A program made the translations under genes and the position numbers. This document shows, one piece after another, positions 36,659 through 52,049 of a stretch of DNA of 64,000 nt; the first letter of the stretch is position 1; each line of letters opens with the position of its first letter. The notes beneath the pieces are model-generated. The model saw only the letters and a program-made list of their open reading frames with translations, made no database searches and was not told the origin of the DNA. Source of the stretch: Saccharicrinis fermentans DSM 9555 = JCM 21142 (GTDB taxonomy: Bacteria; Bacteroidota; Bacteroidia; Bacteroidales; Marinilabiliaceae); NCBI RefSeq assembly GCF_000517085.1, contig NZ_KI912107.1, positions 70,425 through 134,424 on the forward strand. The letters are read 5' to 3'.

Positions 36659-37903
36659 TTAACGTGGGAATAAATCATACCACATTATTCTGCTATTGTT
36701 GTATGAAGGCCAGCTTTCTTGATCAATCCAACCATTACTAGAGCCATACCAACCCCAATTCATGTATATGTGATCAGAATATTCGTACCATGTTTTAACC
36801 GTAATACCTAAAAACTTTCTTGTAACTTTCCATTTAGTCTCTGAATAACCATCTGCAATCCAAATATGGCCACCAGTATTTGTAAAACCACCTAACAAAA
36901 CAGGATACCAATCTTCAATATTGCTATATACAGTATTGAAGTCATATGAAGTTGACTTAGCGGAATTGTAGCCAAGAGTTTTAAGCCCAGTGAGTATTCC
37001 AGCTTGACTGGCTCCACTGCCTCCGCTTGCTGCAGTACCCCAACTATAACCAGGAATTACATCCGCGATATCTCTAAACATTCTTGAAATAGGATTAGAA
37101 TCGGTGGTGGGAGCCAGGCTATTGGGCATTGCTGCATAATCAAATCCTCGGTCGCTTGGATACTTCCATGTCTTACACAATAACCCTACTGCTACGGCAG
37201 GGCATCCAGCAAGATCGATGTTGGGGCGTTTTGCATCAGCATTGTAGCCATTTGCTTGTCCCCACACACAATATTGGATAGTACTCGATGGCCCAATTGG
37301 CGTCAAGCCCCATGACCCTTTATGTTTACCTTTGGTTGTGGAAGCTGAGTTGTTTACAACCAGCTCTATTTCAATCTCTTCGCCATCGCTCTCATTTCCT
37401 AAGCTTTCCCACATGTTATAGTTTTCGTCATCTACATTTATTGTTTTGTCTATGTCTTTCGTTATTTTTTCTATTTGTTCATCGATCATCGATCTCATGG
37501 GAGAGTTTGGATTCATTTCATCTAAGTCTAACTTCCCAGTTGTATTGAATGCAATTAGTGAACTTTGGGATTCCTTGTCAGCGGACAGTAGCATATAGCC
37601 TTGGTTGTCACCAAAGTTAACGATATACATAACAGGGACATTGTCCTCATTTTTGATGGTCTCAATGTCACAAGATTGAGTAGATGCAGTAGAGCGTGTT
37701 TGAGGAGTTTCTGTTGCTTGAATGGCAGCATACATTTTTTCCGCAAAAATCAGACCTTGCTCCTCAGAAACAACTCGCGTAGTTGGACTAATTTCAGGAG
37801 CGTTCCCATTTGGTTGTAGATTTGAATTATCAAGATCTTCTGAGCAACTTGAAAAAAATATCAGCACGAAGCTAATAACTATTAGAAAAAAATTCTTAAT
37901 CAT
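36659..37903 (-). CDS. Streptopain-like (C10) cysteine protease, lipoprotein
   Basis: A secreted papain-fold protease of family C10, like SpeB and the Bacteroides fragilis Bfp proteases. It has 414 residues. The lipobox is FFSSC (Cys20). A Spi-type propeptide inhibitor domain (about residues 40-140: AEKMYAAIQ, VMYIVNFGDNQGYMLLSADK) precedes the catalytic domain. The catalytic Cys234 lies in LAGCPAVAVGLL, His346 in TGGHIWIADGY, and the terminal MNWGWYGSSNGW loop is typical. Translation starts 47 bp after the upstream lipoprotein gene, so the two are probably cotranscribed. Confidence 0.92.
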   Translation of the reverse strand: MIKNFFLIVISFVLIFFSSCSEDLDNSNLQPNGNAPEISPTTRVVSEEQGLIFAEKMYAAIQATETPQTRSTASTQSCDIETIKNEDNVPVMYIVNFGDNQGYMLLSADKESQSSLIAFNTTGKLDLDEMNPNSPMRSMIDEQIEKITKDIDKTINVDDENYNMWESLGNESDGEEIEIELVVNNSASTTKGKHKGSWGLTPIGPSSTIQYCVWGQANGYNADAKRPNIDLAGCPAVAVGLLCKTWKYPSDRGFDYAAMPNSLAPTTDSNPISRMFRDIADVIPGYSWGTAASGGSGASQAGILTGLKTLGYNSAKSTSYDFNTVYSNIEDWYPVLLGGFTNTGGHIWIADGYSETKWKVTRKFLGITVKTWYEYSDHIYMNWGWYGSSNGWIDQESWPSYNNSRIMWYDLFPR

Positions 37904-40213: not shown

Positions 40214-41170
40214 TTAAAACTCCTGATAAACAGGTATCACCTCCAGACCTTGGTCTGTCAATTCTTTTTTTACCTTGCTGAAATTTCGAGTAAAACCAAG
40301 TAGGTAGCCACCACCTCCTGATCCACATAGTTTTAGTAAGTAATCGTTCTTTTTAAATCCCTCTTCCCAATGTTTTAAATACTCGCTGGGTATCATCTCT
40401 TTTAAATATTGAAACTGAAACTTAGAAAGTTGTTTTAGATGTGTGTAAAAACTATTTAAATCACCTGCCAATAAGGAATGAATACATTTATTGGTTGTTG
40501 GTATCAAATCGTTTTTTATTCGGTCGATATATTTAGGGTTGAGACATTTGGTCATGAATAAATCTACCAGAGGTCCTGTTTTACCTGTCTGTTTGGTATT
40601 GACAATAAATACGGCATCATCTGATTTTATATTTTCTCGGGATATACCAATGGAAGAAATATTTTTTTGATCCTTAATAAAAAGCGGGTACTTCAGATAG
40701 CAAATGAGCGGGTCGATGCCCGAGCTTTTACCATGGAAGTAGGACTCTAAGATCGAAAATGTTCTTTTGAGTTCTTGTGTTTCTTTGTTTGAGAGCCCAG
40801 CTTTGGCTTCAATGCGATTTTTACCGTACTTTTTATAGAAGGCAGCTACCAGAGCACCACTACTTCCTAAACCATAACCTTCGGGAATAGAAGATTCAAA
40901 ATATAAGCCCTTTGCAACATCCGCATTAATTTGATCAATATGCACTAGATCAATGGCTTTTTCTTGCAGGTATGCCGAATACTTTTTTAGTTGCTCGTTG
41001 GATTTCTTTGCGAAGTCCAAATCGGTATAACTGGTTGAGTTTATGAAATCAAGTGTCCCGTTAAAATGTGCGTACGGGATGGTTAATCCATTGGAATCAA
41101 AAAGGATAGAGTATTCTCCGAAAAGAAGAACCTTAGAATAAAAAATGCTGTTTTTATTGTTTATAGACAT
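40214..41170 (-). CDS. Mevalonate kinase (GHMP family)
   Basis: Phosphorylates mevalonate, the first step after HMG-CoA reductase. It has 318 residues. GHMP motif 1 is KVLLFGEYSILFDSNGLTIP, motif 2 is IPEGYGLGSSGALVAAFY (ATP-binding glycine/serine loop), FHGKSSGIDPLICY carries the catalytic Asp, and motif 3 is LCGSGGGGYLLGF. It is the last gene of the lower mevalonate block, and starts 3 bp after the decarboxylase stop codon. The paralogue upstream (GYDIA type) also binds a mevalonate-type substrate, so which kinase does which step is an inference from family resemblance. Confidence 0.85.
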   Translation of the reverse strand: MSINNKNSIFYSKVLLFGEYSILFDSNGLTIPYAHFNGTLDFINSTSYTDLDFAKKSNEQLKKYSAYLQEKAIDLVHIDQINADVAKGLYFESSIPEGYGLGSSGALVAAFYKKYGKNRIEAKAGLSNKETQELKRTFSILESYFHGKSSGIDPLICYLKYPLFIKDQKNISSIGISRENIKSDDAVFIVNTKQTGKTGPLVDLFMTKCLNPKYIDRIKNDLIPTTNKCIHSLLAGDLNSFYTHLKQLSKFQFQYLKEMIPSEYLKHWEEGFKKNDYLLKLCGSGGGGYLLGFTRNFSKVKKELTDQGLEVIPVYQEF

Positions 41171-41173
41171 CTA

Positions 41174-42229
41174 TTATAATATTTCTGCTGGTCCATCGCC
41201 CAACTCATCATGTATTAAATTTCCTTGAACACAGTATGACATCAAATTATTGTGAATAAACTCCTGAACTTGCTTTTTGTTCGCAGCCGGATATAAAACA
41301 TGAATATTAGGACCGGCATCGATGGTGAAACAGACTGGAATATTGTTTTGTTCACGAAATATTCTAATTTGTTGAACAATATTCAGGGAGTTAGGCAAAA
41401 GTAAGGTGTAATTGGGTGTGGAGCTCATCATTAAAGCATGAAGGCTTAGTGCTTCCGTTTCTGCCAAGGTGACAAAAGCATTCCAATCGCCTGTTTTTAA
41501 AATAGTGAACAATTTATTTGTATGCTCATTGGCTTGTTGTATTCTTCCTTCTCTATAGGGATGGCCTTCCATTAATTGGTGCCCTAGGGTACTGCTCACT
41601 TTTTTTTGATCTTCGCTGACAATAAGTATGCTGTCTTGGATGTTTGTAAAGCTTGGGTGTATATTGTCTTGTAGGTGAATCGCATGCATATTACTGCTCT
41701 GTTTTAGCTTTGATTTACCCCACGAATTCCAACCACCATATATCGATCGACAGGCACTACCGGAGCCCAGACGAGCCACATTGGATATTTGTTGCTCGGA
41801 TAGTTGCTGGCCGGTTATTTGTTGATGTATTTTACTTAAACATATGGCCAAGGCTGCATAACTACTGGCCGAAGAGGCTATTCCTGACGAATGAGGAAAA
41901 GTGTTTTTACTTTCGATATTCAGATGAAAATTTACTAACCAGGGAAATATCTGTAAGATCCTTTTGAAAAATACCTCTGTTTTCTTTTTAAATGTAGTGT
42001 TCTCCTTACCCGCAAAGATCAAACGGAAGGAGATGTTTTCCTGACCAGGATGAAAGGTGTAACTGATCGAGGTGTCGGTGATGGAATGTTTTAAACTGAA
42101 ACTGACAGAAGGATTTAAGGGAATTTGCATTCCCGTTTTTCCCCAATATTTAACAATGGCTATGTTCGAAGGACTGGTAACATGAATTTTACTACCTTCA
42201 CTTAAATCTTGTTTCTCAGTTATTGTCAT
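41174..42229 (-). CDS. mvaD: Diphosphomevalonate decarboxylase
   Basis: ATP-dependent decarboxylation of mevalonate 5-diphosphate to isopentenyl diphosphate. It has 351 residues. The signature SPSNIAIVKYWGKTGMQIPL is followed by NPSVSFSLKHS, SKNTFPHSSGIASSASSYAA (phosphate-binding loop) and RLGSGSACRSIYGGWNSWG, where the Arg and the preceding Ser are conserved. DAGPNIHVLYP near the C-terminus carries the catalytic Asp. A phosphomevalonate decarboxylase activity cannot be excluded from sequence alone. It is tightly linked to the kinases on each side. Confidence 0.92.
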   Translation of the reverse strand: MTITEKQDLSEGSKIHVTSPSNIAIVKYWGKTGMQIPLNPSVSFSLKHSITDTSISYTFHPGQENISFRLIFAGKENTTFKKKTEVFFKRILQIFPWLVNFHLNIESKNTFPHSSGIASSASSYAALAICLSKIHQQITGQQLSEQQISNVARLGSGSACRSIYGGWNSWGKSKLKQSSNMHAIHLQDNIHPSFTNIQDSILIVSEDQKKVSSTLGHQLMEGHPYREGRIQQANEHTNKLFTILKTGDWNAFVTLAETEALSLHALMMSSTPNYTLLLPNSLNIVQQIRIFREQNNIPVCFTIDAGPNIHVLYPAANKKQVQEFIHNNLMSYCVQGNLIHDELGDGPAEIL

Positions 42230-42272
42230 TATTTATGGATAAATGAGAGCTCATTTTACTTTGTACGTTACT

Positions 42273-43220
42273 TTACCTGCAAGGGTTATTTAAAACCAAT
42301 TCTTCGTACTTATATATGGTATTTAATTTTTTATTGCCAAAGTAATCAAAAACATATTCGTCTGTTTGTTTACTTACAGCCATCACAAAATCGCCACCCC
42401 AAGCTCCCAGTGATTTGATAGAACCATCAAAGTCGCTAAAATGTTCTTGTTTAACGGGCGTTTTATCTATTATTCTGCCAATGATATCTTCGTGCTCGTT
42501 TATGAGTTCTTGAAAATCAGTTAATTCGGTGCATACCGCCATGTATGTAGATATGGCGCTTATTTTGACAATATCTTCAGAAGAAATATTTCTTTTATGA
42601 AAGCCTTTAATGGAAGCTTTTGAATTTTGTTTTCTACCGGTATAAACAAAGTAAATGTTATTTTTAAAAATAGGATCAAAGTTGATTTCAACACTTTTGG
42701 GCTTATCATCTATGAGCAGAAAGAAGATAGCCATTGAGTTGGCTGCGTTGGCGATGTCATAGCCAGATCCTTTAAATGTTGTTTGCAGAAGCTTATAGGG
42801 ATCAATTTTAAAAAAAACAGAAAGGTTATATAGCAGTGTAGAGCTACTGCCAAGTCCCCATTGTGGCATAAATTCCAAATGAGTTACAGCTCTCTTTTCT
42901 AGTATATCAGCTAGTTGGAGTGGGCTTAATTTGATGGCTTTTCTAATGATTTTTTGCAGTTGTTTTGCAAATGCGTCATCGGTACAGCTGGTAATAGTAA
43001 GTTTATCATTGAATTTAACGGTGTTCCAGTCTCCGTCGGCATGCGTGGCCTCCCAGATAAATCCATTTTCTTTGGATTCATAAATGTCCAGACTTTGTCC
43101 TAACTTTAATGGTAATGATAATGCTTTTGCGCCCTTTAATACTAAATATTCTCCAGACAACATTAGCTTGCCGTTGCCTCTGGAAGAAAAAACGGGGCTT
43201 GGTTTTATTTCTTTGTTCAT
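42273..43220 (-). CDS. GYDIA family GHMP kinase, probable phosphomevalonate kinase
   Basis: A GHMP-fold kinase of the Bacteroidota GYDIA group, 315 residues. Features are NGKLMLSGEYLVLKGAKALS (motif 1), PQWGLGSSSTLLYNL (motif 2), the name-giving GSGYDIANAAN and a degenerate motif 3 near SIKSLGAWGGDFVMAV. By pathway logic it should supply the phosphomevalonate kinase step between mevalonate kinase and MvaD. It lies between HMG-CoA reductase and mvaD with gaps of 44-47 bp. The biochemical activity of this group is assigned by context, not by residues I can read. Confidence 0.8.
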   Translation of the reverse strand: MNKEIKPSPVFSSRGNGKLMLSGEYLVLKGAKALSLPLKLGQSLDIYESKENGFIWEATHADGDWNTVKFNDKLTITSCTDDAFAKQLQKIIRKAIKLSPLQLADILEKRAVTHLEFMPQWGLGSSSTLLYNLSVFFKIDPYKLLQTTFKGSGYDIANAANSMAIFFLLIDDKPKSVEINFDPIFKNNIYFVYTGRKQNSKASIKGFHKRNISSEDIVKISAISTYMAVCTELTDFQELINEHEDIIGRIIDKTPVKQEHFSDFDGSIKSLGAWGGDFVMAVSKQTDEYVFDYFGNKKLNTIYKYEELVLNNPCR

Positions 43221-43266
43221 ATTTACTGCCTGCTACTTAACTGAAAAGAATGTGGTAATAGCTTTT

Positions 43267-44655
43267 CTATATTTCGTTATCTGTATGTCTCTCAGATTCG
43301 AGAAACTGTTTTACTGCCGAGTGACTAACGGTATGGTTGTTGAAATAGTTGAAGGCTTTTGCTTTCTCATCATCGGACGCATTAAAAGTAAATAAAATAT
43401 TTGATAAATGCATTTTCATATGCCCCTGTTGGATGCCGGAAGTAACCAATGCTGCTATTGCCGAAAAATTATTGGCCATTCCTGCAGATGCAATGATTTG
43501 CATTAATTCGTATGCTGAAGGATTTCCCAGAAGCGCCAGTGAAAAATGAGCCAAAGGATGGATCTTGGTGAGGCCTCCAACAGTGCCTAAAGCCAATGGT
43601 AGGGTTAATGTGTAGGTGAATAGTTCATCTGTTAGGGTAATGTTAGTGAGTGAGCTGTACTTGCCTGACCTGGCAGCGTAGGCATGTACCCCGGCTTCAA
43701 TGGCTCTATAATCGTTGCCAGTGGCCATAACAACTGCATCAACACCATTCATAATGCCTTTATTATGGGTTACAGCGCGTGGTGTATTGTGTTTGGCCAA
43801 TAAAACAGCTTTCTCGAAACGCCGGGCAAACTCTTGAGAGGTATAATTTCCGGCATAGGCTCCTAAAGAGTGGATAGGACAGGAGATTGTACATTCTACC
43901 ATACAGCTGGGGGTGTAGTTGGATAAAATGGCCATGTCGATTGTTACTTGTTTTGTTTTGTTTTTATCCTCTAGTATGGTACAGAGATGGTTTCCCATCC
44001 TTTCGAGGCATGTGTTGATGAAATTTGCCCCCATGGAGTCAGCTGTTTCGAAATGAACCTGCAGGCAGTAGGATTGGTCGTCGATATCTGTTATGGGAAT
44101 TAGCTGCATATCTACAATGCCACCTCCCCGTTGCTCCATGGATTGCGTAAGGTCAGTAATGCCTTGGATTAGTGCAGTGTGGATATATGGCATGTGTTCT
44201 TTCAGTTCCCCGAATTTCCAATCGCTTGTAAAAAAAAGCTGCCCCTCTTTTATGGATGAAATTACTTTTGTTTGGAATCCACCTAACCTACTCCAAAATT
44301 TAGCTGCTTTGGCTGCTGCTGCTACCACAGAGCTTTCTTCAATAGCCATGGGAATGGCATATTCTTTTTGGTTGATGATGAAGTTTGGTGCAACACCGTA
44401 AGGTAGGTAAAAGTTACTGACGGTGTTTTCGGAGAATTGATTGTATGTGTCTTGTAAGTTTTTGTGAAGGTGAGAGTTGAGGGTTTGTTTGAGGGATGAT
44501 GGTAGCTTAAAGTTATTTAGTAGGATGTCTACTTTTTCTTCTTGAGAGCGTTTTGAAAAACCTTGGATCATAGTATTTGTTGGTATTTTGCTTTGTGCCA
44601 TCAATACATCATGTATATGGCCTAAAAAATAGTGTTCATTTAAAGAAGACTCCAT
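43267..44655 (-). CDS. HMG-CoA reductase, class II type
   Basis: Interconverts HMG-CoA and mevalonate. It has 462 residues with no membrane anchor, so a cytosolic class II enzyme. Visible are the N-terminal IQGFSKRSQEEKVDIL, ENTVSNFYLPYGVAPNFIIN, AIPMAIEESSVVAAAAKAAK (catalytic Glu), MGANFINTCLE, HNKGIMNGVDAVVMATGNDY (catalytic Lys/Asp region) and TLPLALGTVGGLTKIHPLA. The class is often called degradative, but here it sits with isomerase and GHMP kinases, so synthesis of mevalonate is the likely direction. No HMG-CoA synthase gene is nearby. Confidence 0.94.
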   Translation of the reverse strand: MESSLNEHYFLGHIHDVLMAQSKIPTNTMIQGFSKRSQEEKVDILLNNFKLPSSLKQTLNSHLHKNLQDTYNQFSENTVSNFYLPYGVAPNFIINQKEYAIPMAIEESSVVAAAAKAAKFWSRLGGFQTKVISSIKEGQLFFTSDWKFGELKEHMPYIHTALIQGITDLTQSMEQRGGGIVDMQLIPITDIDDQSYCLQVHFETADSMGANFINTCLERMGNHLCTILEDKNKTKQVTIDMAILSNYTPSCMVECTISCPIHSLGAYAGNYTSQEFARRFEKAVLLAKHNTPRAVTHNKGIMNGVDAVVMATGNDYRAIEAGVHAYAARSGKYSSLTNITLTDELFTYTLTLPLALGTVGGLTKIHPLAHFSLALLGNPSAYELMQIIASAGMANNFSAIAALVTSGIQQGHMKMHLSNILFTFNASDDEKAKAFNYFNNHTVSHSAVKQFLESERHTDNEI

Positions 44656-44704
44656 GAAAACACAGAGCCTTTATTCGATGTTAATGGTTATTTGAACTGC
44701 AGTT

Positions 44705-45691
44705 TTATTTAATTTTCAGATAGGCTTCGGCCAGTTGCCATGCATTAATCATATTTTTAACAAATGTTTGTAGCTCCTGATAGTCTTTGAGGGCATAATT
44801 TAAAAAAGCACTACCCATTCCTAATACAGCGGGTAGCTTGCTTATCTTGGTCAGATAATAGCCATCTAAGAGGGATTTGATGCCTCCCGATATGATAATT
44901 TGCTTGCATTGCGTATTGCCTTCTTCAACAATTTGATTGACCATGCGTGTCATTTCTTCGGCAGTATGGCCAACAGTTGTAAAGCTTTCGAAAATAGAGG
45001 AGATATCTAATCTGCGCATTTGTTCCAGCTTGGTAAAGTTTGTGCCCCCAAGTGCTCCAAACTCAATTGCTGCAATATTCATATTTAGTAAGGCTCTTAG
45101 GCTCTCTAGCCCCATTCCCTGTCCTACTTCTTTAACAATAATAGGAGACTCAACCTGCTCCAGCAGTTCCTGGATACATTCAATTGGTGGGCGTTTTAAT
45201 ACATCGCCTTCGGGTTGAAATGCTTCTTGCAGAGGGTTGATGTGTATGATGGTACCATCTGTTTTCAGCTGTTTGTTCAGGTAGTCGATTTTTTCACTCT
45301 CCTTGTTTTTTAGTAGTTGCTCTAGTTGGGCAATGCCCAAGTTGGCATAAAAAGGATAATCATCTCCTATCCAAGAGCGTACATTAAAATCCTCCCAGTA
45401 ATCATCTGATTCAAAAAGACCACGACATGATCCCAGTCCCATGCCCAATCCAAATTCACCGGTAGCTTTTGCTAATTTTACATTAATGGCTGCGGCGCGC
45501 TGTGTTCCACCAGTCATGGACGAAATCCAGAAAGGGTGGTTCATCTTTTTGCCTAAAAATGAAAAAGGCTTTACCTCTCCATTGGGATGGGCCGACAATA
45601 ATGGTTCGTACATAAACCGAGGGTCTGCTTGGGCCCGGCTTACAGTGGCTTCAAAAGCTAAATGAAGATGCTCTTTTTTTCTGTCTTCCAT
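44705..45691 (-). CDS. fni: Type 2 isopentenyl-diphosphate delta-isomerase
   Basis: FMN- and NADPH-dependent isomerisation of IPP to DMAPP. It has 328 residues from the ATG at 45691 (MEDRKKEHLHLAFEA), which matches where the family begins; the frame is open to 45772. Features are FWISSMTGGTQRAAAIN (FMN contact), GLGMGLGSCRGLF, HINPLQEAFQPEGD (catalytic His/Gln region), IIVKEVGQGM (Lys/Glu) and IEFGALGGTNFTKLE. It is preceded by a recognisable promoter, which suggests that it can open the mevalonate half of the cluster independently. Confidence 0.93.
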   Translation of the reverse strand: MEDRKKEHLHLAFEATVSRAQADPRFMYEPLLSAHPNGEVKPFSFLGKKMNHPFWISSMTGGTQRAAAINVKLAKATGEFGLGMGLGSCRGLFESDDYWEDFNVRSWIGDDYPFYANLGIAQLEQLLKNKESEKIDYLNKQLKTDGTIIHINPLQEAFQPEGDVLKRPPIECIQELLEQVESPIIVKEVGQGMGLESLRALLNMNIAAIEFGALGGTNFTKLEQMRRLDISSIFESFTTVGHTAEEMTRMVNQIVEEGNTQCKQIIISGGIKSLLDGYYLTKISKLPAVLGMGSAFLNYALKDYQELQTFVKNMINAWQLAEAYLKIK

Positions 45692-45769
45692 AGGATAAAA
45701 AAACAAGGTTTTATGAGGACGAATCGAATTTACGCCAAAAAAATAGATGATACAAGCCCCGTACCGGAA

Positions 45770-45777
45770 CAAATATA
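45770..45777 (-). promoter_or_regulatory. Candidate -7 element upstream of fni
   Basis: Minus-strand TATATTTG, a full match to TAnnTTTG, 78 bp before the fni start, in the gap between the acyl-CoA dehydrogenase and fni genes. No clear -33 TTTG at the right distance. If active, it separates the leucine half from the mevalonate half. Confidence 0.5.
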
Positions 45778-45829
45778 AATTAGAGCCTCAGGTTTGGGGT
45801 ATCATTATTTTAATGACAATGTGCGCTTA

Positions 45830-46972
45830 TTACATGAGATGACGAGAGATCACCAACTTAAGTATCTCGGATGTTCCTTCTCCAATACGTAAAATACGAT
45901 GGTCACGATAAAACCGTTCCATATCATGATTTTTAAATAAACCTGCTCCAGCCAATATTTGCATTCCTTCGTCAGATACTTCAGCGGCTACCTCGCTGCA
46001 ATATAATTTTGCCATAGCAGCTTCTTTGCCAAAAGGTTGGTGATTGTCTTTTAGCCAGCAGGCTTTGTATAGTAGGTTTCTGGCTAGTTCTATTTTTAGA
46101 TCCATATCGGCCAGTTTAAATTGTATGGCCTGAAAACCTGCAATTTTTTTTCCGAATTGTTCTCTTTGTTGGGCATAGTCTAAAGCCATTTCAAAAGCAC
46201 CTTGTGCCAAGCCTAAGCCCATAGCTGCAATGGACAGTCTTCCACTATCCAAGGTTTGAAGCATTTGAGATAAACCTTTTTCGGGTGTTCCCAGTATATC
46301 ACTATCTTTTATAAGACAGTTATTAAATGTTATTTCGGCAGTGTCAGAGGCTCTCCACATCATTTTTCCCAGTGTGCGCTTTGTTGAAAAGCCAGGACTG
46401 TCTCTCTTAACAATAAAGGTAGAATAGGTGGGTTTGCCATTTTTTGTTCCGGTTTTTGCCAAAACGGTGATGCCTGCCATGAGTTCGTTACTGCCGTTGG
46501 TGATATATCTTTTGGAACCATTGATGCTCCATCCGTCATCCGTCTTGGTGGCTTCTGAGGCAACACCCCTGGCATCAGAACCGGCTGTTATTTCGGTAAG
46601 ACCAAAGGCCCAGAGTTTATTTCCGTTCAGGAGATCCGGGAGCATGGATGTTTTTTGTTCTTCGGTGCCAAAATGGTATATAGGAGAAGCGCCTAGCGAA
46701 TTGTGTGCAGCGAGCGTGGCTGCTTGTGAGCCATCTACCCTGGCTATTTCTTCCACAGCAATAATGTATGAGATAGTATCCTTGCCTTGTCCGCCATATT
46801 TTTGAGGTATGTCAATGCCAAATAAACCTTGTTGTCCCATTTTTTTGGTTAACTCAACCGAAAAAGTTTCCTGGGCATCTAATGCTTGTGCAAGAGGTTT
46901 AATTTCAGTTTCAGCAAATTCTCTTACCTTTTTTCTGAATTCTTCTTTTTCTCCGCTGTAATATGGATTCAT
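45830..46972 (-). CDS. Acyl-CoA dehydrogenase, probable isovaleryl-CoA dehydrogenase by context
   Basis: A FAD-dependent acyl-CoA dehydrogenase, 380 residues. It has the N-terminal helical domain (FAETEIKPLAQALDAQETF), FGLTEITAGSDARG (FAD contact), INGSKRYITNGSNELM, YAQQREQFGKKIAGFQAIQF and the C-terminal IGEGTSEILKLVISRHLM. The context (MCC subunits and a methylglutaconyl-CoA hydratase) points to isovaleryl-CoA. However, classical isovaleryl-CoA dehydrogenases have Ala at the Glu of GEGTSE, so by residues this resembles short-chain/butyryl-type enzymes. The substrate is therefore open. It lies 60 bp after the biotin subunit gene. Confidence 0.88.
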   Translation of the reverse strand: MNPYYSGEKEEFRKKVREFAETEIKPLAQALDAQETFSVELTKKMGQQGLFGIDIPQKYGGQGKDTISYIIAVEEIARVDGSQAATLAAHNSLGASPIYHFGTEEQKTSMLPDLLNGNKLWAFGLTEITAGSDARGVASEATKTDDGWSINGSKRYITNGSNELMAGITVLAKTGTKNGKPTYSTFIVKRDSPGFSTKRTLGKMMWRASDTAEITFNNCLIKDSDILGTPEKGLSQMLQTLDSGRLSIAAMGLGLAQGAFEMALDYAQQREQFGKKIAGFQAIQFKLADMDLKIELARNLLYKACWLKDNHQPFGKEAAMAKLYCSEVAAEVSDEGMQILAGAGLFKNHDMERFYRDHRILRIGEGTSEILKLVISRHLM

Positions 46973-47031
46973 ACTTTACTTATTTGTTGTTTGTCAATAG
47001 TCAATAATGGTTGTTTGCTCTTGTCTGTGTA

Positions 47032-49011
47032 TTATTCTGTTTCTAATAATAGCTGGTTTAACTGTACCTGTTGACCTTTATCAACTGCAATTTTTTTAAC
47101 CACAGTGTCCTTCCAAGCATGAATGCTGTTTTCTGTTTTCATGGCTTCCAACACCATGAGGGTATCTCCCTTTTTTATGGCTTTACCTTCTTTTGCCATA
47201 ATTTCGATTATTCTTCCCGGCATGGGAGCTTTCATTGTTTTTATAGCCTCCACATTATCTGTGTCATTATTTCTTTTTATTCGTTCAGGTATATCGCTAA
47301 TAATTCTTTTTCGTCCATTATGCTGGATGTGATAAAGGCCATCGTTCGCCACCAGATAATTGACCCAAAAATGTTTTTCGTTAATAATGAATGAGAGTTC
47401 ATTTTGTTCAATTCTGATGCAAGAAATTTCAATAGGTTTTTCTTGATCTATTTGAATAGTGATGGTTTCGGTATTGATGTTGATGAGGTCAATGGTTAGT
47501 TTATGTCCTTCAAAATATATTTGGTGTTGTTGGTATAATCGCCAGTAGCCAAGGGTGTTCCATATATTGTCTGATGGTATTTTAGTGTGATGTTTCAGGG
47601 TAATAAAGGCGGCTGCAATGATTTCCAGTTCAGCACTTAACACAGGCGTCTTGGATAAGAGGTAGTCTTGCTTGGCTTCGAAAAAAGAGGTGGAATAGTT
47701 TCCTTGTTGGAAATCGGGATCTTTCAGAGCCTTTAGTATGAATTCTCTGTTGGATTCAACGCCAAAAAGAGCGAAGTTATTCAAGAACTTTTGTAGGCGC
47801 AGGATGGCTTGGTTGCGATCTTGACCGTAGGCAATTACTTTTTTTAGTAAGGGATCGAAGTTGGGGTTGAGGTTCTCTTGTGATTGTGCACCACCATCAA
47901 TTCTAATATGGGGGTGGGAAGGAATATGGGTGCCCATTATCTTTCCAAAGGAGGGAGCGAAGCTGTCACTGGGGTCTTCAGCGTATATGCGTGCTTCAAT
48001 GGCGTGTCCGTGATATTCAATCTCATTTTGCTGATAGGAGAGGGGCATGCCTGCCGCAATTTGTATTTGCTCCTTGACAATGTCGATGCCTGTTATGAGT
48101 TCAGTAACAGGGTGCTCTACCTGTATACGGGTATTCATTTCCAGAAAAAAGTGCTTTTGATCGGTTGTCAATAAAAATTCTACCGTTCCTGCGTTTGTAT
48201 AACCGATATGTTGGGCAAGCTTCAAGGCATCTTCTATTATTTTTTGTTTTGTGGTGTTATCCAGATTGGGAGCAGGACTTTCTTCTATCACTTTTTGATG
48301 GCGCCTCTGTATGGAGCATTCCCGCTCAAATAAATGAACCGTGTTTCCATGATGATCGCCCAGTATTTGTACTTCTATGTGTCTGGGGTTTTGGATGTAT
48401 TCTTCTATGTAAACTGAAGCATTTCCAAAATATCTAAGAGCTTCGGATGCGGCGCGTTTAATTTCTCTTTCTAATTCGTTTAAGTGGTGAACGACGCGCA
48501 TTCCTTTACCTCCGCCTCCTGCAGACGCTTTGATAACAATGGGTAGGCTTAGTGTTTTTGCGCCTTTCAGTATTTGTGCAACAGAACCATTTATTTTTTG
48601 CAGCAATGGTATTTCGCAGCGTGCAGCTATCTTATTGGCCGCCTCTTTGTTTCCCATCATTTTAATATGGCGGGCTTCGGGGCCGATAAAAACAATATTG
48701 TGTTGATTACATAGCTCGGCAAATACTTCATTCTCAGATAAAAATCCGTAGCCGGGATGGATGGCATCTACCTGGTAGCGTTGTGCCAGAGCAATGATTT
48801 GATGCGCGTTCAGATAGGTTTCCTCAAGCCTTGTTCCATTCATCAAGGCTTTTAGGTCTGCTTTCTCAACATGCAGGGCATCTTTCTCCTCGGTTGTATA
48901 AATGGCCACCGTTTCCAATCCCATTTCTTTGGCCGTTTTTATGATTCTTACGGCTATTTCGCCTCTGTTGGCAATGAGTATCCTATTAAACTGATGGTAT
49001 ATTTTCTTCAT
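47032..49011 (-). CDS. liuD: 3-methylcrotonyl-CoA carboxylase alpha (biotin) subunit
   Basis: Biotin carboxylase plus biotin carrier, about 659 residues. It starts MKKIYHQFNRILIANRGEIA; the frame is open 78 bp further but without family support. Features are HPGYGFLSENEVFAE, KASAGGGGKGMRVVH (ATP-grasp loop), ERECSIQRRHQKVIEESPAP, FLEMNTRIQVEHPVTELITG (catalytic Arg/Glu) and the carrier motif LEAMKTEN with the biotin Lys 34 residues from the C-terminus. The start overlaps the hydratase gene by 26 bp. Its role as the methylcrotonyl rather than propionyl subunit follows from the adjacent beta subunit and hydratase. Confidence 0.92.
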   Translation of the reverse strand: MKKIYHQFNRILIANRGEIAVRIIKTAKEMGLETVAIYTTEEKDALHVEKADLKALMNGTRLEETYLNAHQIIALAQRYQVDAIHPGYGFLSENEVFAELCNQHNIVFIGPEARHIKMMGNKEAANKIAARCEIPLLQKINGSVAQILKGAKTLSLPIVIKASAGGGGKGMRVVHHLNELEREIKRAASEALRYFGNASVYIEEYIQNPRHIEVQILGDHHGNTVHLFERECSIQRRHQKVIEESPAPNLDNTTKQKIIEDALKLAQHIGYTNAGTVEFLLTTDQKHFFLEMNTRIQVEHPVTELITGIDIVKEQIQIAAGMPLSYQQNEIEYHGHAIEARIYAEDPSDSFAPSFGKIMGTHIPSHPHIRIDGGAQSQENLNPNFDPLLKKVIAYGQDRNQAILRLQKFLNNFALFGVESNREFILKALKDPDFQQGNYSTSFFEAKQDYLLSKTPVLSAELEIIAAAFITLKHHTKIPSDNIWNTLGYWRLYQQHQIYFEGHKLTIDLININTETITIQIDQEKPIEISCIRIEQNELSFIINEKHFWVNYLVANDGLYHIQHNGRKRIISDIPERIKRNNDTDNVEAIKTMKAPMPGRIIEIMAKEGKAIKKGDTLMVLEAMKTENSIHAWKDTVVKKIAVDKGQQVQLNQLLLETE

Positions 49012-49786
49012 TGTTCCATGCTGGTTTTCGTTTTTCAAAAAATGCTTTAACACCTTCCTGGCCTTCGCTGGAGATCCGTGCATTGGCAATCATTCGTGCA
49101 CAAAATAAAAAGGCCGATTCATCATCTACACATTCTTCTAGACGTTGTATGAGGGCTTTGGTTTGTATCAGTGCATCGGGAGCACCTTGCGCAACGGCTT
49201 GTGCAATGCTGAGTGTCTTTTCTCGGATAGGAACGTTGTCGGCAATGAAGTGCACCAATGATTCAGCTTGTGCTTCTTTTGCAGTAAACGGATTGGGTAT
49301 TAAAAGACGCTTGCGTGCGTTGCTGTTGCCCATCTTAGAGATAATGTAAGGCGCTATGGTGGCTGGAATAATGCCTAGCTTTACCTCCGGGAATGCAAAT
49401 GTAGAGCAGGCTTCGCACACTACGATATCAGCGCTTGCCATTAGTCCTACGGCTCCTCCAAATGCCGATTTCTTGACTTCACAGATCACTGGCGTTGGAA
49501 AGGTGTGAATGCTCTCGAATAAGGTGTTGAATAGTTTGGCATCGTCGATGTTTTCGGTTTTGGATTGTTGTATCCCGGCTTTCATCCATTCTAAGTCGGC
49601 TCCTGAGCAAAAATGATCACTTTCACCATAGATCACCAGTACCCTGAAATTTCTGTTGGCTTTATTTTCTGCGAGGGTGCCAATTATTTCTTCTATCATC
49701 GTTTTATTGATGGCGTTTTTCTTTTCGGGTCTGTTTAAACCTAAAAAAGCAATTCGATCTTCAATATAAAATTTGATTGTTTTCAT
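48986..49786 (-). CDS. liuC: Methylglutaconyl-CoA hydratase (enoyl-CoA hydratase family)
   Basis: Adds water to 3-methylglutaconyl-CoA to give HMG-CoA in leucine breakdown. It has 266 residues. Crotonase motifs are NRPEKKNAINKTMIEEI, DHFCSGADLEWMK (first oxyanion loop), KKSAFGGAVGLMASADIVV (second oxyanion loop) and the LiuC/AUH-type catalytic segment FAFPEVKLGIIPATIAPYII. The last motif separates this subgroup from ordinary enoyl-CoA hydratases. It starts 5 bp after the beta subunit stop and overlaps liuD at its end, so the three genes are translationally coupled. Confidence 0.9.
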   Translation of the reverse strand: MKTIKFYIEDRIAFLGLNRPEKKNAINKTMIEEIIGTLAENKANRNFRVLVIYGESDHFCSGADLEWMKAGIQQSKTENIDDAKLFNTLFESIHTFPTPVICEVKKSAFGGAVGLMASADIVVCEACSTFAFPEVKLGIIPATIAPYIISKMGNSNARKRLLIPNPFTAKEAQAESLVHFIADNVPIREKTLSIAQAVAQGAPDALIQTKALIQRLEECVDDESAFLFCARMIANARISSEGQEGVKAFFEKRKPAWNNEENIPSV

Positions 49787-49791
49787 GGAGC

Positions 49792-51387
49792 TTACATTCT
49801 GAAAATACCGTAAGTAGAAGTATTGTTGGGTTTATTTTGTGCAATAGTTAAGCCAATGGTCAGAATCATTCTGGTATCGGCAGGGTCAATAATACCATCA
49901 TCCCATAGTCGGCTGGTGGCATAATAAGGAGAGGCTTCTTTCTCAAAGCCTTGTCGGGTTTTATTTTTAAGCTGGTTTAATTCATCTTCTGATATTTCTA
50001 CACCTGCCGCTTTGGCCTGGTCTTTTTTTACGGTGGCCAACACATCGGCTGCCTGTCGGGGACCCATTACCGATATACTTGAGTTGGGCCAGGTAAACAA
50101 TAGGCGAGGGCCAAATGCCCGTCCTCCCATGGCGTAGTTGCCTGCACCATAACTTCCACCTGTGATGATGGTGAAAAAAGGTACCCGGGAGTTGGCCAGT
50201 GCATTGACCATTTTAGCGCCATCTTTGGCAATGCCCCGTTTCTCATATTCCTTGCCAACCATAAATCCAGCTATATTTTGCAAAAATATCATAGGGAGGT
50301 TGCGGTTATTGCATAGTTGAATAAAATGGGCTCCTTTCTGTGCTGACTCTGAAAACAAAATGCCATTGTTGGCTAGTATCCCAACCGAAAATCCATTGAT
50401 ATTCGCATATCCGGTCACTAAGGTAGAACCGTAATCAGGTTTAAATTCATTGAATTCGCTATGGTCTGTAAGACACTTAATCAATGGCCGTACATCTCTT
50501 TGTTTACTGCCAATGTTGGGTATCTCATTATAAATAGCTTCTCGTGGGTATTGAGGAGGAGCCTCTTGAGTACGTTTGTAGTTCTCCTTAGAGGGGTGTG
50601 GTAGAGATTTGAATATTTCTCTGCATATTTCAATGGCATGGTGATCGTCGTCTGCTAAATGATCTGCCACTCCCGATTCTGAGGTGTGTAGTTTTCCTCC
50701 TCCTAGTTCTTCGGCCGTAACATCTTCTCCGGTAGCTGCTTTTACCAAGGGGGGGCCTCCGAGGAATATGGTGCCTTGGTTTTTAACGATAATGGTTTCG
50801 TCACTCATGGCTGGAATGTATGCTCCTCCTGCGGTACATGATCCCATCACAATGCTGATTTGTGGAATACCCATGGATGATAATCGGGCTTGATTATAAA
50901 AGATCCTCCCAAAGTCTTCTTTGTCGGGAAACACCTGGGCTTGTTCGGGTAAAAATATACCACCAGAATCAACCAGGTAGACACAGGCTAAATTATTTTG
51001 TTCGGCAATCTCCTGTGCCCTCAGATGTTTTTTGATAGTTTCCTTAACGTAAGTGCCTCCCTTGGTGCATGCGTCATTGGCGATAATAATTGATTCGCGT
51101 CCTTGTATAATGCCGATACCAGTGATGATTCCGGCGGAAGGAAAACTATCATTATATTGGCCGTATGCTGCCAATGGTGATAACTCAACAAACGGTGTTT
51201 GCTTGTCAATCAATAGGTTGATCCGCTCGTGAGCAAGTAGTTTGCCTCGCTTTTTGTGACGCTCTTTTTGCTTGGTGTTTAGTTGATTGAGGCTTTGTAT
51301 GATTTGATTAAATTTACTTATCTCCAAATTCACCTCGGGGTGATTGGGAATGGTGTTATTGTTTCTGATACTCGTCATTTTTGTCAT
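49792..51387 (-). CDS. liuB: 3-methylcrotonyl-CoA carboxylase beta (carboxyltransferase) subunit
   Basis: Transfers CO2 from carboxybiotin to 3-methylcrotonyl-CoA. It has 531 residues. It shows the two crotonase-fold carboxyltransferase halves, with MCC-specific segments DSGGIFLPEQAQVFPDKEDF, GRIFYNQARLSSMGIPQI, GSCTAGGAYIPAMSDE, GGGKLHTSESGVADHLADDD, and NRNLPMIFLQNIAGFMVGKE with SYGAGNYAMGGRAFGPRLL. It is the first gene of the minus-strand cluster. The ATG at 51387 or the one at 51378 may be used. Confidence 0.94.
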   Translation of the reverse strand: MTKMTSIRNNNTIPNHPEVNLEISKFNQIIQSLNQLNTKQKERHKKRGKLLAHERINLLIDKQTPFVELSPLAAYGQYNDSFPSAGIITGIGIIQGRESIIIANDACTKGGTYVKETIKKHLRAQEIAEQNNLACVYLVDSGGIFLPEQAQVFPDKEDFGRIFYNQARLSSMGIPQISIVMGSCTAGGAYIPAMSDETIIVKNQGTIFLGGPPLVKAATGEDVTAEELGGGKLHTSESGVADHLADDDHHAIEICREIFKSLPHPSKENYKRTQEAPPQYPREAIYNEIPNIGSKQRDVRPLIKCLTDHSEFNEFKPDYGSTLVTGYANINGFSVGILANNGILFSESAQKGAHFIQLCNNRNLPMIFLQNIAGFMVGKEYEKRGIAKDGAKMVNALANSRVPFFTIITGGSYGAGNYAMGGRAFGPRLLFTWPNSSISVMGPRQAADVLATVKKDQAKAAGVEISEDELNQLKNKTRQGFEKEASPYYATSRLWDDGIIDPADTRMILTIGLTIAQNKPNNTSTYGIFRM

Positions 51388-51661: not shown

Positions 51662-51697
51662 AAAAAAGTGCGAAAGTTTTAGCCTTCGCACTTTTTT
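51662..51697 (-). terminator. Strong terminator of the zinc-ribbon gene (bidirectional)
   Basis: A 13-bp perfect stem of AAAAAAGTGCGAA with TTCGCACTTTTTT, 10-base loop, T tract on both strands. It lies 20 bp after the minus-strand stop at 51717. Confidence 0.9.
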
Positions 51698-51716: not shown

Positions 51717-52049
51717 TTATATTGTACTGGAAAAGGCGATGGCAATGGATAGGAAAGCGATAATAATAAGTCCAGAAAAATGCCAAAAAGGCAGTCTTAC
51801 TTCGCTTTTCATCTCTCTAAACTGTCGATCAATATTTTCTGGCATGTGCTTAGGTTCATAGATATGGTTGCATTTGACACACCTGGATGCTCCTTTTTTT
51901 CCCAGAGAGAAAGTGGGAATCCAGAAAAAATGAAAATATTTTCCGTAAAAACTGTTCTCGATGCCACCTTTTTCATGACAATTGGGGCATGTGATGTTTT
52001 TAGATTGTAGTGTTTTAATGTGAGACGAGCGCCATCCGTATATAATCAT
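51717..52049 (-). CDS. Zinc-ribbon protein with C-terminal membrane segment
   Basis: A small protein, 110 residues, of unknown role. Two CxxC knuckles (CPNC at about residue 21 and CVKC at about 57) form a zinc ribbon. Between them is an aromatic stretch (YGKYFHFFWIPTFSLGKKG) seen in the zinc-ribbon_15-type family. A hydrophobic C-terminal segment (about residues 90-108, FSGLIIIAFLSIAIAF) probably anchors it in the membrane. It is a single gene with its own terminator, divergent from the helicase. Confidence 0.78.
   Translation of the reverse strand: MIIYGWRSSHIKTLQSKNITCPNCHEKGGIENSFYGKYFHFFWIPTFSLGKKGASRCVKCNHIYEPKHMPENIDRQFREMKSEVRLPFWHFSGLIIIAFLSIAIAFSSTI

Follow-up and report, generated by a model that had tools for sequence, protein, structure and literature searches.

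What supplies the substrate of the 3-hydroxy-3-methylglutaryl-CoA (HMG-CoA) reductase of Saccharicrinis fermentans DSM 9555 = JCM 21142, when its gene stands in a nine-gene block that holds neither an HMG-CoA synthase nor an HMG-CoA lyase? The question arises from a 64,000-nucleotide stretch of contig NZ_KI912107.1 (hereafter the window), in which nine open reading frames (ORFs) at 40214-51387, all on the minus strand and all found open in an ORF check, follow one another in the order liuB, liuC, liuD, acyl-CoA dehydrogenase, fni, hmgR, GYDIA GHMP kinase, mvaD and mevalonate-kinase-like gene. The initial annotation had described nine minus-strand liu and mevalonate genes in a row, which the ORFs, the family matches and the order kept in relatives confirm. 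Gene content, gene order, conservation and the lack of synthase and lyase matches lead us to propose that this cluster is probably one operon forming a dedicated leucine shunt into isoprenoids, with substrates, direction, flux and a single transcript as its predictions. Such an operon would explain an HMG-CoA reductase (HMGR) that is otherwise without a source of substrate.

Enzymes of the cluster and the proposed route

The enzyme families for the conversion of isovaleryl-CoA into HMG-CoA are present, as judged from Pfam and solved-structure matches. The gene liuB (49792..51387, minus strand, like the eight others) encodes the beta (carboxyltransferase) subunit of 3-methylcrotonyl-CoA carboxylase (MCC), with PF01039 at 488.6 bits and nearest solved chains that mostly bear the label MCC. 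Indeed, the eight nearest chains (538-651 bits) comprise five labelled as MCC, AccD1, one with the label propionyl-CoA carboxylase beta (9tps) and one unnamed carboxyltransferase, and other propionyl-type chains reach at most 259 bits. The product of liuC (48986..49786) is a 3-methylglutaconyl-CoA hydratase of the crotonase family (PF00378, 142.6 bits), whose motifs GGAxG and EVK are also present in LiuC of liu clusters of the lyase type, and liuD (47032..49011) encodes the MCC alpha subunit, i.e., biotin carboxylase and biotin carrier (PF02786, PF00289, PF02785 and PF00364), with the biotin motif EAMK. The acyl-CoA dehydrogenase (45830..46972; PF00441, PF02771 and PF02770) is the weakest assignment, and isovaleryl-CoA is its presumed substrate from the context of the gene. 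Alternatively, the liu half might act on longer acyclic terpenoid CoA esters of the geranyl-CoA type and thereby return carbon from isoprenoids to the mevalonate pathway. Among NCBIfam models, a gamma-carboxygeranoyl-CoA hydratase ranks second for LiuC (187.4 bits, below the cut-off of 426), and two order members have an AtuA-family gene between liuD and the dehydrogenase gene. However, the window cluster holds no atuA gene, and LiuB scores 422 bits with the geranyl-CoA carboxylase beta chain and is thus nearer to the MCC-type chains at 538-651 bits, so that we regard recycling of this kind as very unlikely.

The cluster also contains the canonical enzyme set leading from HMGR to isopentenyl diphosphate (IPP). 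The gene hmgR (43267..44571) encodes a class II reductase (PF00368, 289.7 bits; nearest solved chain 7n7s_A, 413.7 bits) that scores 250.8 bits with TIGR00532, just under the cut-off of 259.95; its motifs are intact, and E107, K299, D315 and H412 (numbering of the listed ORF), which we take to be the catalytic residues of class II reductases, are invariant in 27 aligned sequences. The type 2 isopentenyl-diphosphate isomerase gene fni (44705..45691) reaches 186.2 bits with TIGR02151 (cut-off 281.3) and up to 103 bits with solved type 2 isomerases, and no Pfam domain was matched in Fni at E 0.001. The diphosphomevalonate decarboxylase MvaD (41174..42229) carries the TIDAGPN motif, lies above the cut-off of TIGR01240 (190.8 vs 171.35 bits) and has solved homologues at up to 144 bits. 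As for the two GHMP kinases, the mevalonate-kinase-like protein (40214..41170) scores 73.5 bits with TIGR00549, below the cut-off of 163.05, and its sole solved chain at E <= 0.1 is the mevalonate kinase 2x7i (E 8.3e-6). The GYDIA-family kinase (42273..43220), a candidate phosphomevalonate kinase, lies above the cut-off of NF040656 (322.9 vs 225 bits), an NCBIfam family to which no function is assigned there. In a fold search with its AlphaFold2 model (predicted local distance difference test score of 94.7, 34-sequence alignment), the first ten places go to mevalonate and phosphomevalonate kinases at 13-16% identity, closely followed by a heptokinase and galactokinases, and 33 of the 34 family members weakly match the mevalonate kinase model (E up to 1).

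Read in metabolic order, isovaleryl-CoA derived from leucine or its precursor 2-ketoisocaproate would be converted by the acyl-CoA dehydrogenase into 3-methylcrotonyl-CoA, carboxylated by LiuB/LiuD to 3-methylglutaconyl-CoA and hydrated by LiuC to HMG-CoA. The reductase would then yield mevalonate, the two GHMP kinases mevalonate diphosphate, MvaD IPP, and Fni would convert IPP into dimethylallyl diphosphate, the operon replacing acetoacetyl-CoA thiolase and HMG-CoA synthase. Carboxylation takes place on the gamma carbon of 3-methylcrotonyl-CoA, and the carboxylate derived from CO2 is free in HMG-CoA and becomes C1 of mevalonate. CO2 would thus be a temporary handle: as the added carboxylate is the C1 carboxylate that MvaD removes, all five isovaleryl carbons would pass intact into one isoprene unit. 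The shunt would consume four ATP and two reduced nicotinamide cofactors, and its dehydrogenase step would give back one electron pair. If this is true, leucine is predicted to give M+5 isoprene units, which offers a clean isotope test, and the nine genes would constitute a ready-made module from isovalerate to isoprenoids without HMG-CoA synthase. The authors of a 2021 review state that they knew of no case in which the leucine shunt had been constructed in E. coli to make terpenoids (PMC8791446).

Searches for HMG-CoA synthase and lyase in the genome

The genome, which comprises 5.98 Mb in 4 contigs and is rated 100% complete, gave no match for HMG-CoA synthase at E 0.001 with TIGR01833, PF08540 or a profile made for Bacteroidota (A2). 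The initial annotation had remarked on the absence of synthase and lyase from the block, which inspection of the block and whole-genome profile searches bear out: mvaS together with a lyase elsewhere in the genome, the first thing it named as speaking against its own reading, was searched for with these three synthase models and the lyase model NF004283, and was not found. The null result with TIGR01833 is meaningful, since this model scores three Bacteroidota synthases at 143-154 bits, which is under its curated cut-off and far above the E limit used; against NCBIfam, HMG-CoA synthase models rank top for these three proteins, with no curated cut-off passed. Note that TIGR01833 is not specific, as it matched in 7 of 14 control genomes (including E. 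coli, none over the cut-off), and PF08540 matched in 4 of the 14. The latter was judged insensitive, with Bacteroidota synthases at only ~58-66 bits and 21 of 296 phylum genomes matched, and profile A2 was therefore made from the synthase ORFs that PF08540 had found, 15 of the 21 being used. On the 296 phylum genomes, A2 gave 34 matches, 21 at 652-869 bits and 13 at 19-67 bits, a partly circular control given that the 21 strong genomes are those found by PF08540 and that most of them supplied the profile.

The searches were extended to 119 genomes, S. fermentans included, of which 71 belong to the window's family and one each to 48 other families of the order; PF08540 found a synthase in none of them. 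The candidate explanation of a synthase hidden by a weak model was rejected with profile A2, which gave no match in S. fermentans and four weak ones in the 119 genomes (66.6, 63.4, 27.2 and 20.8 bits in G082, G116, G096 and G040, respectively), all without HMGR. More generally, an unrecognised synthase (e.g., one like 3-ketoacyl-acyl carrier protein synthase III) could feed an ordinary mevalonate pathway, the liu genes only degrading leucine and being co-transcribed by chance. The weakness of PF08540 taken alone would leave room for such an enzyme, and ten genomes of the phylum sample do encode synthase-like ORFs of 351-397 aa at 55-67 bits; but these ten genomes, as well as G082 and G116, lack HMGR, neither TIGR01833 nor A2 gives a match in S. 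fermentans, and the liu genes would have no known catabolic end because no lyase was found. We consider this explanation improbable.

With the lyase model, three weak matches (51-63 bits) were obtained in S. fermentans, none of them lyase-grade, and all three received another name, i.e., LeuA (739 bits, over the cut-off), a CimA-like protein (641 bits, below) and a homocitrate-synthase-like protein (438 bits, below). Lyase-grade refers here to 18 matches of 62-203 bits in nine genomes, each with a best match >= 174 bits. The curated cut-off of 246 for NF004283 was passed in none of the 119 genomes, the best matches of the nine lying at 174-203 bits, and in each of three lyase-grade genes checked the lyase model came out on top. 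Leucine itself need not come from outside, because matches above the cut-off were obtained in S. fermentans for ilvC, leuA, leuC and leuB.

A flow in reverse, from the mevalonate pathway towards isovaleryl-CoA, had been called less likely by the initial annotation, and we agree: it is unlikely, even remote, because no other source of HMG-CoA was found and because mevalonate kinases and the decarboxylase run only in the direction of IPP. What would favour it is the best NCBIfam score of the dehydrogenase, obtained with an acryloyl-CoA reductase model (363.3 bits, far below the cut-off of 640), and the precedent of myxobacteria, which make isovaleryl-CoA from the mevalonate pathway via MvaS, LiuC and AibABC according to the available text of PMC9131029. 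However, the myxobacterial route needs MvaS, which was not found in this genome, and the AibAB decarboxylase, whose expected place is occupied here by a biotin carboxylase, and it leaves the kinases, MvaD and Fni without a role. None of AibA, AibB and AibC is encoded in the nine-gene block (the rest of the genome was not searched for them).

Cluster order and gene co-occurrence in relatives

Of 59 HMGR neighbourhoods fetched from the 119 genomes, 54 (from 53 genomes) contain a match to the HMGR of the window and 5 do not. A different gene order was seen in none of the 54, with all nine genes in 35, liuD to hmgR together minus an end in 3, and shorter runs in the other 16. It should be noticed that this count kept the best same-strand match per gene, that other ORFs intervene in some loci, and that one neighbourhood (L080) is an HMGR alone and uninformative on order. 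This arrangement is conserved throughout the family and recurs in three further families of the same order (G090, G101 and G111), and 39 clusters, the window counted, have liuD to hmgR together and are called fused below. The recurrence of the fusion, which the initial annotation had raised for Bacteroidota, was thereby counted within 119 genomes of one order. A tree was made of 59 LiuB sequences, of which 41 stem from HMGR neighbourhoods (three of them duplicates under a second locus), 12 were labelled split and 6 lie near a lyase; two of the split rows, L221 and L226, belong to genomes whose lyase-grade gene is located on a different contig. On this tree the fused state needs 3 changes, which fits one old origin followed by losses or several origins.

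A survey of named loci, in which 80 were kept of >= 590 matches, showed liu genes beside HMGR in 6 (labels Bacteroidales, Thermophagus, Marinilabilia and Mariniphaga), three of these being contigs that had entered the count before, as G025, G033 and G038. Among the named loci, Marinilabilia salmonicolor JCM 21150 (L155) and Thermophagus xiamenensis DSM 19012 (L108) have the complete set of nine in order. In two Ancylomarina loci just the dehydrogenase and fni are present, and the remaining 72 lack a close liu gene; some of the latter are short contigs, and three show a distant match to a crotonase or dehydrogenase and nothing more. Another source of HMG-CoA beside variant clusters without liu genes was looked for and set aside, as the neighbours looked unrelated (presumably GroEL and adenine deaminase, read from their first residues). 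In addition, fni, HMGR, GYDIA kinase, mvaD and mevalonate kinase genes stand together in L129 and L184, on contigs labelled Bacteriovoracaceae and hence outside Bacteroidota by label, and a 116-aa and a 439-452-aa ORF recur near the mevalonate kinase gene (L047, L056, L062, L064, L066, L068 and L069), which we take, from reading their sequences, to be P-II-like and ammonium-transporter-like, respectively.

HMGR (PF00368) was found in 57 of the 119 genomes and a liuB orthologue (E <= 1e-100) in 62, with 56 genomes having both, 1 HMGR only, 6 liuB only and 56 neither. Within the window's family, 41 genomes have both and 30 neither, with no genome having HMGR only or liuB only; in the 48 other families the counts are 15 both, 1 HMGR only, 6 liuB only and 26 neither (Fisher p = 6.6e-7, a guide only since the genomes are related). 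None of the 39 fused clusters shares its genome with a lyase-grade match. A lyase-grade match accompanies liuB in eight genomes: in L220, L223, L224, L225 and L227 the lyase gene comes after the liu genes or close to them, in G115 (L222) it is ~10 kb away on the liu contig, and in two further genomes it is on another contig. As an example, the lyase gene of L220, L223 and L227 comes after liuBCD, in place of the window's mevalonate genes, with the dehydrogenase present in L220 and L223 and both 3-oxoacid CoA-transferase subunits in L220. Outside the family, liuB occurs in 21 genomes, of which 11 carry HMGR but no lyase, 4 carry a lyase but no HMGR, 4 carry both and 2 carry neither. From these gene contents, it seems that HMG-CoA from leucine ends in either acetoacetate or mevalonate and that few genomes keep both. 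Two further observations concern liu loci: the AtuA-family gene (PF07287, ~482 bits) mentioned above lies at L219:13377-15176 and L231:6870-8684, and G082 and G116 (L213 and L214) combine liuB with an HMG-CoA-synthase-like ORF of 355-368 aa (63-67 bits), HMGR, lyase and ispH having been searched for in them and not found.

Several points weigh against a dedicated leucine shunt. One near solved chain of LiuB (9tps) is labelled propionyl-CoA carboxylase beta, the nearest solved chain of the dehydrogenase is 5ol2 (321 bits), with named isovaleryl-CoA dehydrogenases at 217-224 bits, and LiuB, LiuC, LiuD and the dehydrogenase are below the cut-off for all NCBIfam models shown, while passing for their Pfam domains; the mevalonate-kinase-like protein and the isomerase also score under NCBIfam cut-offs. 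Among the 56 genomes with HMGR and liuB, 17 do not show liuD to hmgR together, and 4 of these 17 have a lyase-grade match. Some of the 17 are contig-edge cases, G004, G013, G031 and G100 are truly split (in G004 between fni and hmgR, with both parts kept), and in G080, G086 and G104 the sole HMGR has no match to that of the window. Finally, dxr and ispH of the methylerythritol phosphate (MEP) pathway were found in S. fermentans, giving IPP another likely source. The MEP pathway, which the initial annotation had named as a competing supply, thus stays a candidate for the supply of all IPP, and the operon would probably work as a second route beside it in this genome. Its broader claim that leucine carbon is routed to isoprenoids is sustained on the genomic side by the missing synthase and lyase matches, the kept order and the co-occurrence of HMGR and liuB, whereas on the side of flux it stays a prediction, next to MEP markers that are present.

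The gene dxr was detected in 116 of the 119 genomes and ispH in 108, counting one fragment. Four HMGR-positive genomes (G018, G100, G101 and G115) gave no ispH match, G083 gave a fragment only, and G115 also gave no dxr match; the four assemblies consist of 80-390 contigs and are perhaps incomplete, and some HMGR-negative genomes are without ispH too. These four organisms are possibly dependent on the leucine-fed route, and it may be the sole isoprenoid source in relatives without an ispH match such as G100, G101 and G115. At the scale of the phylum sample (296 genomes, S. fermentans included), HMGR was found in 68 genomes, 47 of which lack a synthase-profile match of more than 20 bits, namely 23 of the 44 that belong to the window's class and all 24 that do not; a synthase unlike profile A2 could be missed in this count. 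These profile searches would, on the far-reaching reading that follows, suggest that the leucine-fed habit is phylum-wide. Altogether, we advance tentatively, and as a joint claim that is rather doubtful as a whole, that a bacterial mevalonate pathway regularly draws its carbon from leucine instead of acetyl-CoA, that a third route from pyruvate to IPP would run from the ilv/leu pathway through ketoisocaproate, isovaleryl-CoA and HMG-CoA, and that this habit extends across the phylum. The operon is also a warning that surveys of isoprenoid evolution can go astray when the presence of HMGR is taken to prove that a mevalonate pathway is fed by acetyl-CoA.

Locus boundaries and comparison with known systems

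Start positions were revised for three genes: hmgR starts at 44571, a start kept in relatives and later than the listed 44655, and the likely starts from sequence are 49011 for liuD (listed 49089) and 45691 for fni (listed 45772). With these starts, the spacing ranges from a 26-nt overlap to ~140 nt, and a single transcript of the nine genes is plausible. Upstream, an intrinsic terminator on the minus strand (51662..51697; 15-bp stem, -18.4 kcal/mol, z = -6.42, T run read directly), which is not among the sites of a consensus terminator scan, ends a minus-strand zinc-ribbon ORF (51717-52049; PF17032, 29.4 bits vs cut-off 28.9) and separates it from the operon. The next ORF past the zinc-ribbon ORF and the ORF downstream of the cluster are on the plus strand. 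A promoter scan gave 25 sites, fewer than the 33.2 in shuffled sequences, and no promoter is claimed. Elsewhere in the window, 36659-37903 encodes a Peptidase C10 domain with an N-terminal Spi-type inhibitor domain (PF01640 and PF13734).

The initial annotation knew of no compact cluster of this form, and likewise no description of such an operon was found in the open-licence literature searched (preprints outside its scope); in the available text of a 2026 review of bacterial isoprenoid pathways, the words 'leucine' and 'bacteroid' never occur (PMC13001223). Within the reach of these searches, what appears to be new is the conserved linkage, in one bacterial cluster, of the leucine shunt with the lower mevalonate pathway where no synthase was found. 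The shunt itself has been reviewed for Halobacterium salinarum and Leishmania mexicana (PMC8791446), shown genetically in Trypanosoma brucei (PMC5993337) and cited for halophilic archaea (PMC6832408). The chemistry proposed here, from leucine through HMG-CoA to mevalonate, is the same as in Leishmania, T. brucei and Halobacterium, but the available text on these organisms (PMC8791446, PMC5993337) describes no gene cluster, whereas one bacterial cluster would carry it here; T. brucei also has an HMG-CoA synthase gene (PMC5993337), in contrast with S. fermentans, where none was found. Like the window cluster, the myxobacterial Aib pathway joins HMG-CoA and isovaleryl-CoA through LiuC, but as described in the available part of PMC9131029 it runs in the opposite direction, needs MvaS and AibA/AibB/AibC and has no carboxylase step. 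The canonical bacterial mevalonate pathway has HMGR, the two kinases, MvaD and the type 2 isomerase in common with the cluster and differs by its HMG-CoA synthase, which was not found in this genome. The lyase-type liu clusters (L220 and L223) share the liuB-liuC-liuD-dehydrogenase order with the window and end in a lyase, whereas the window, where no lyase was found, has fni, HMGR, the kinases and mvaD in that place.

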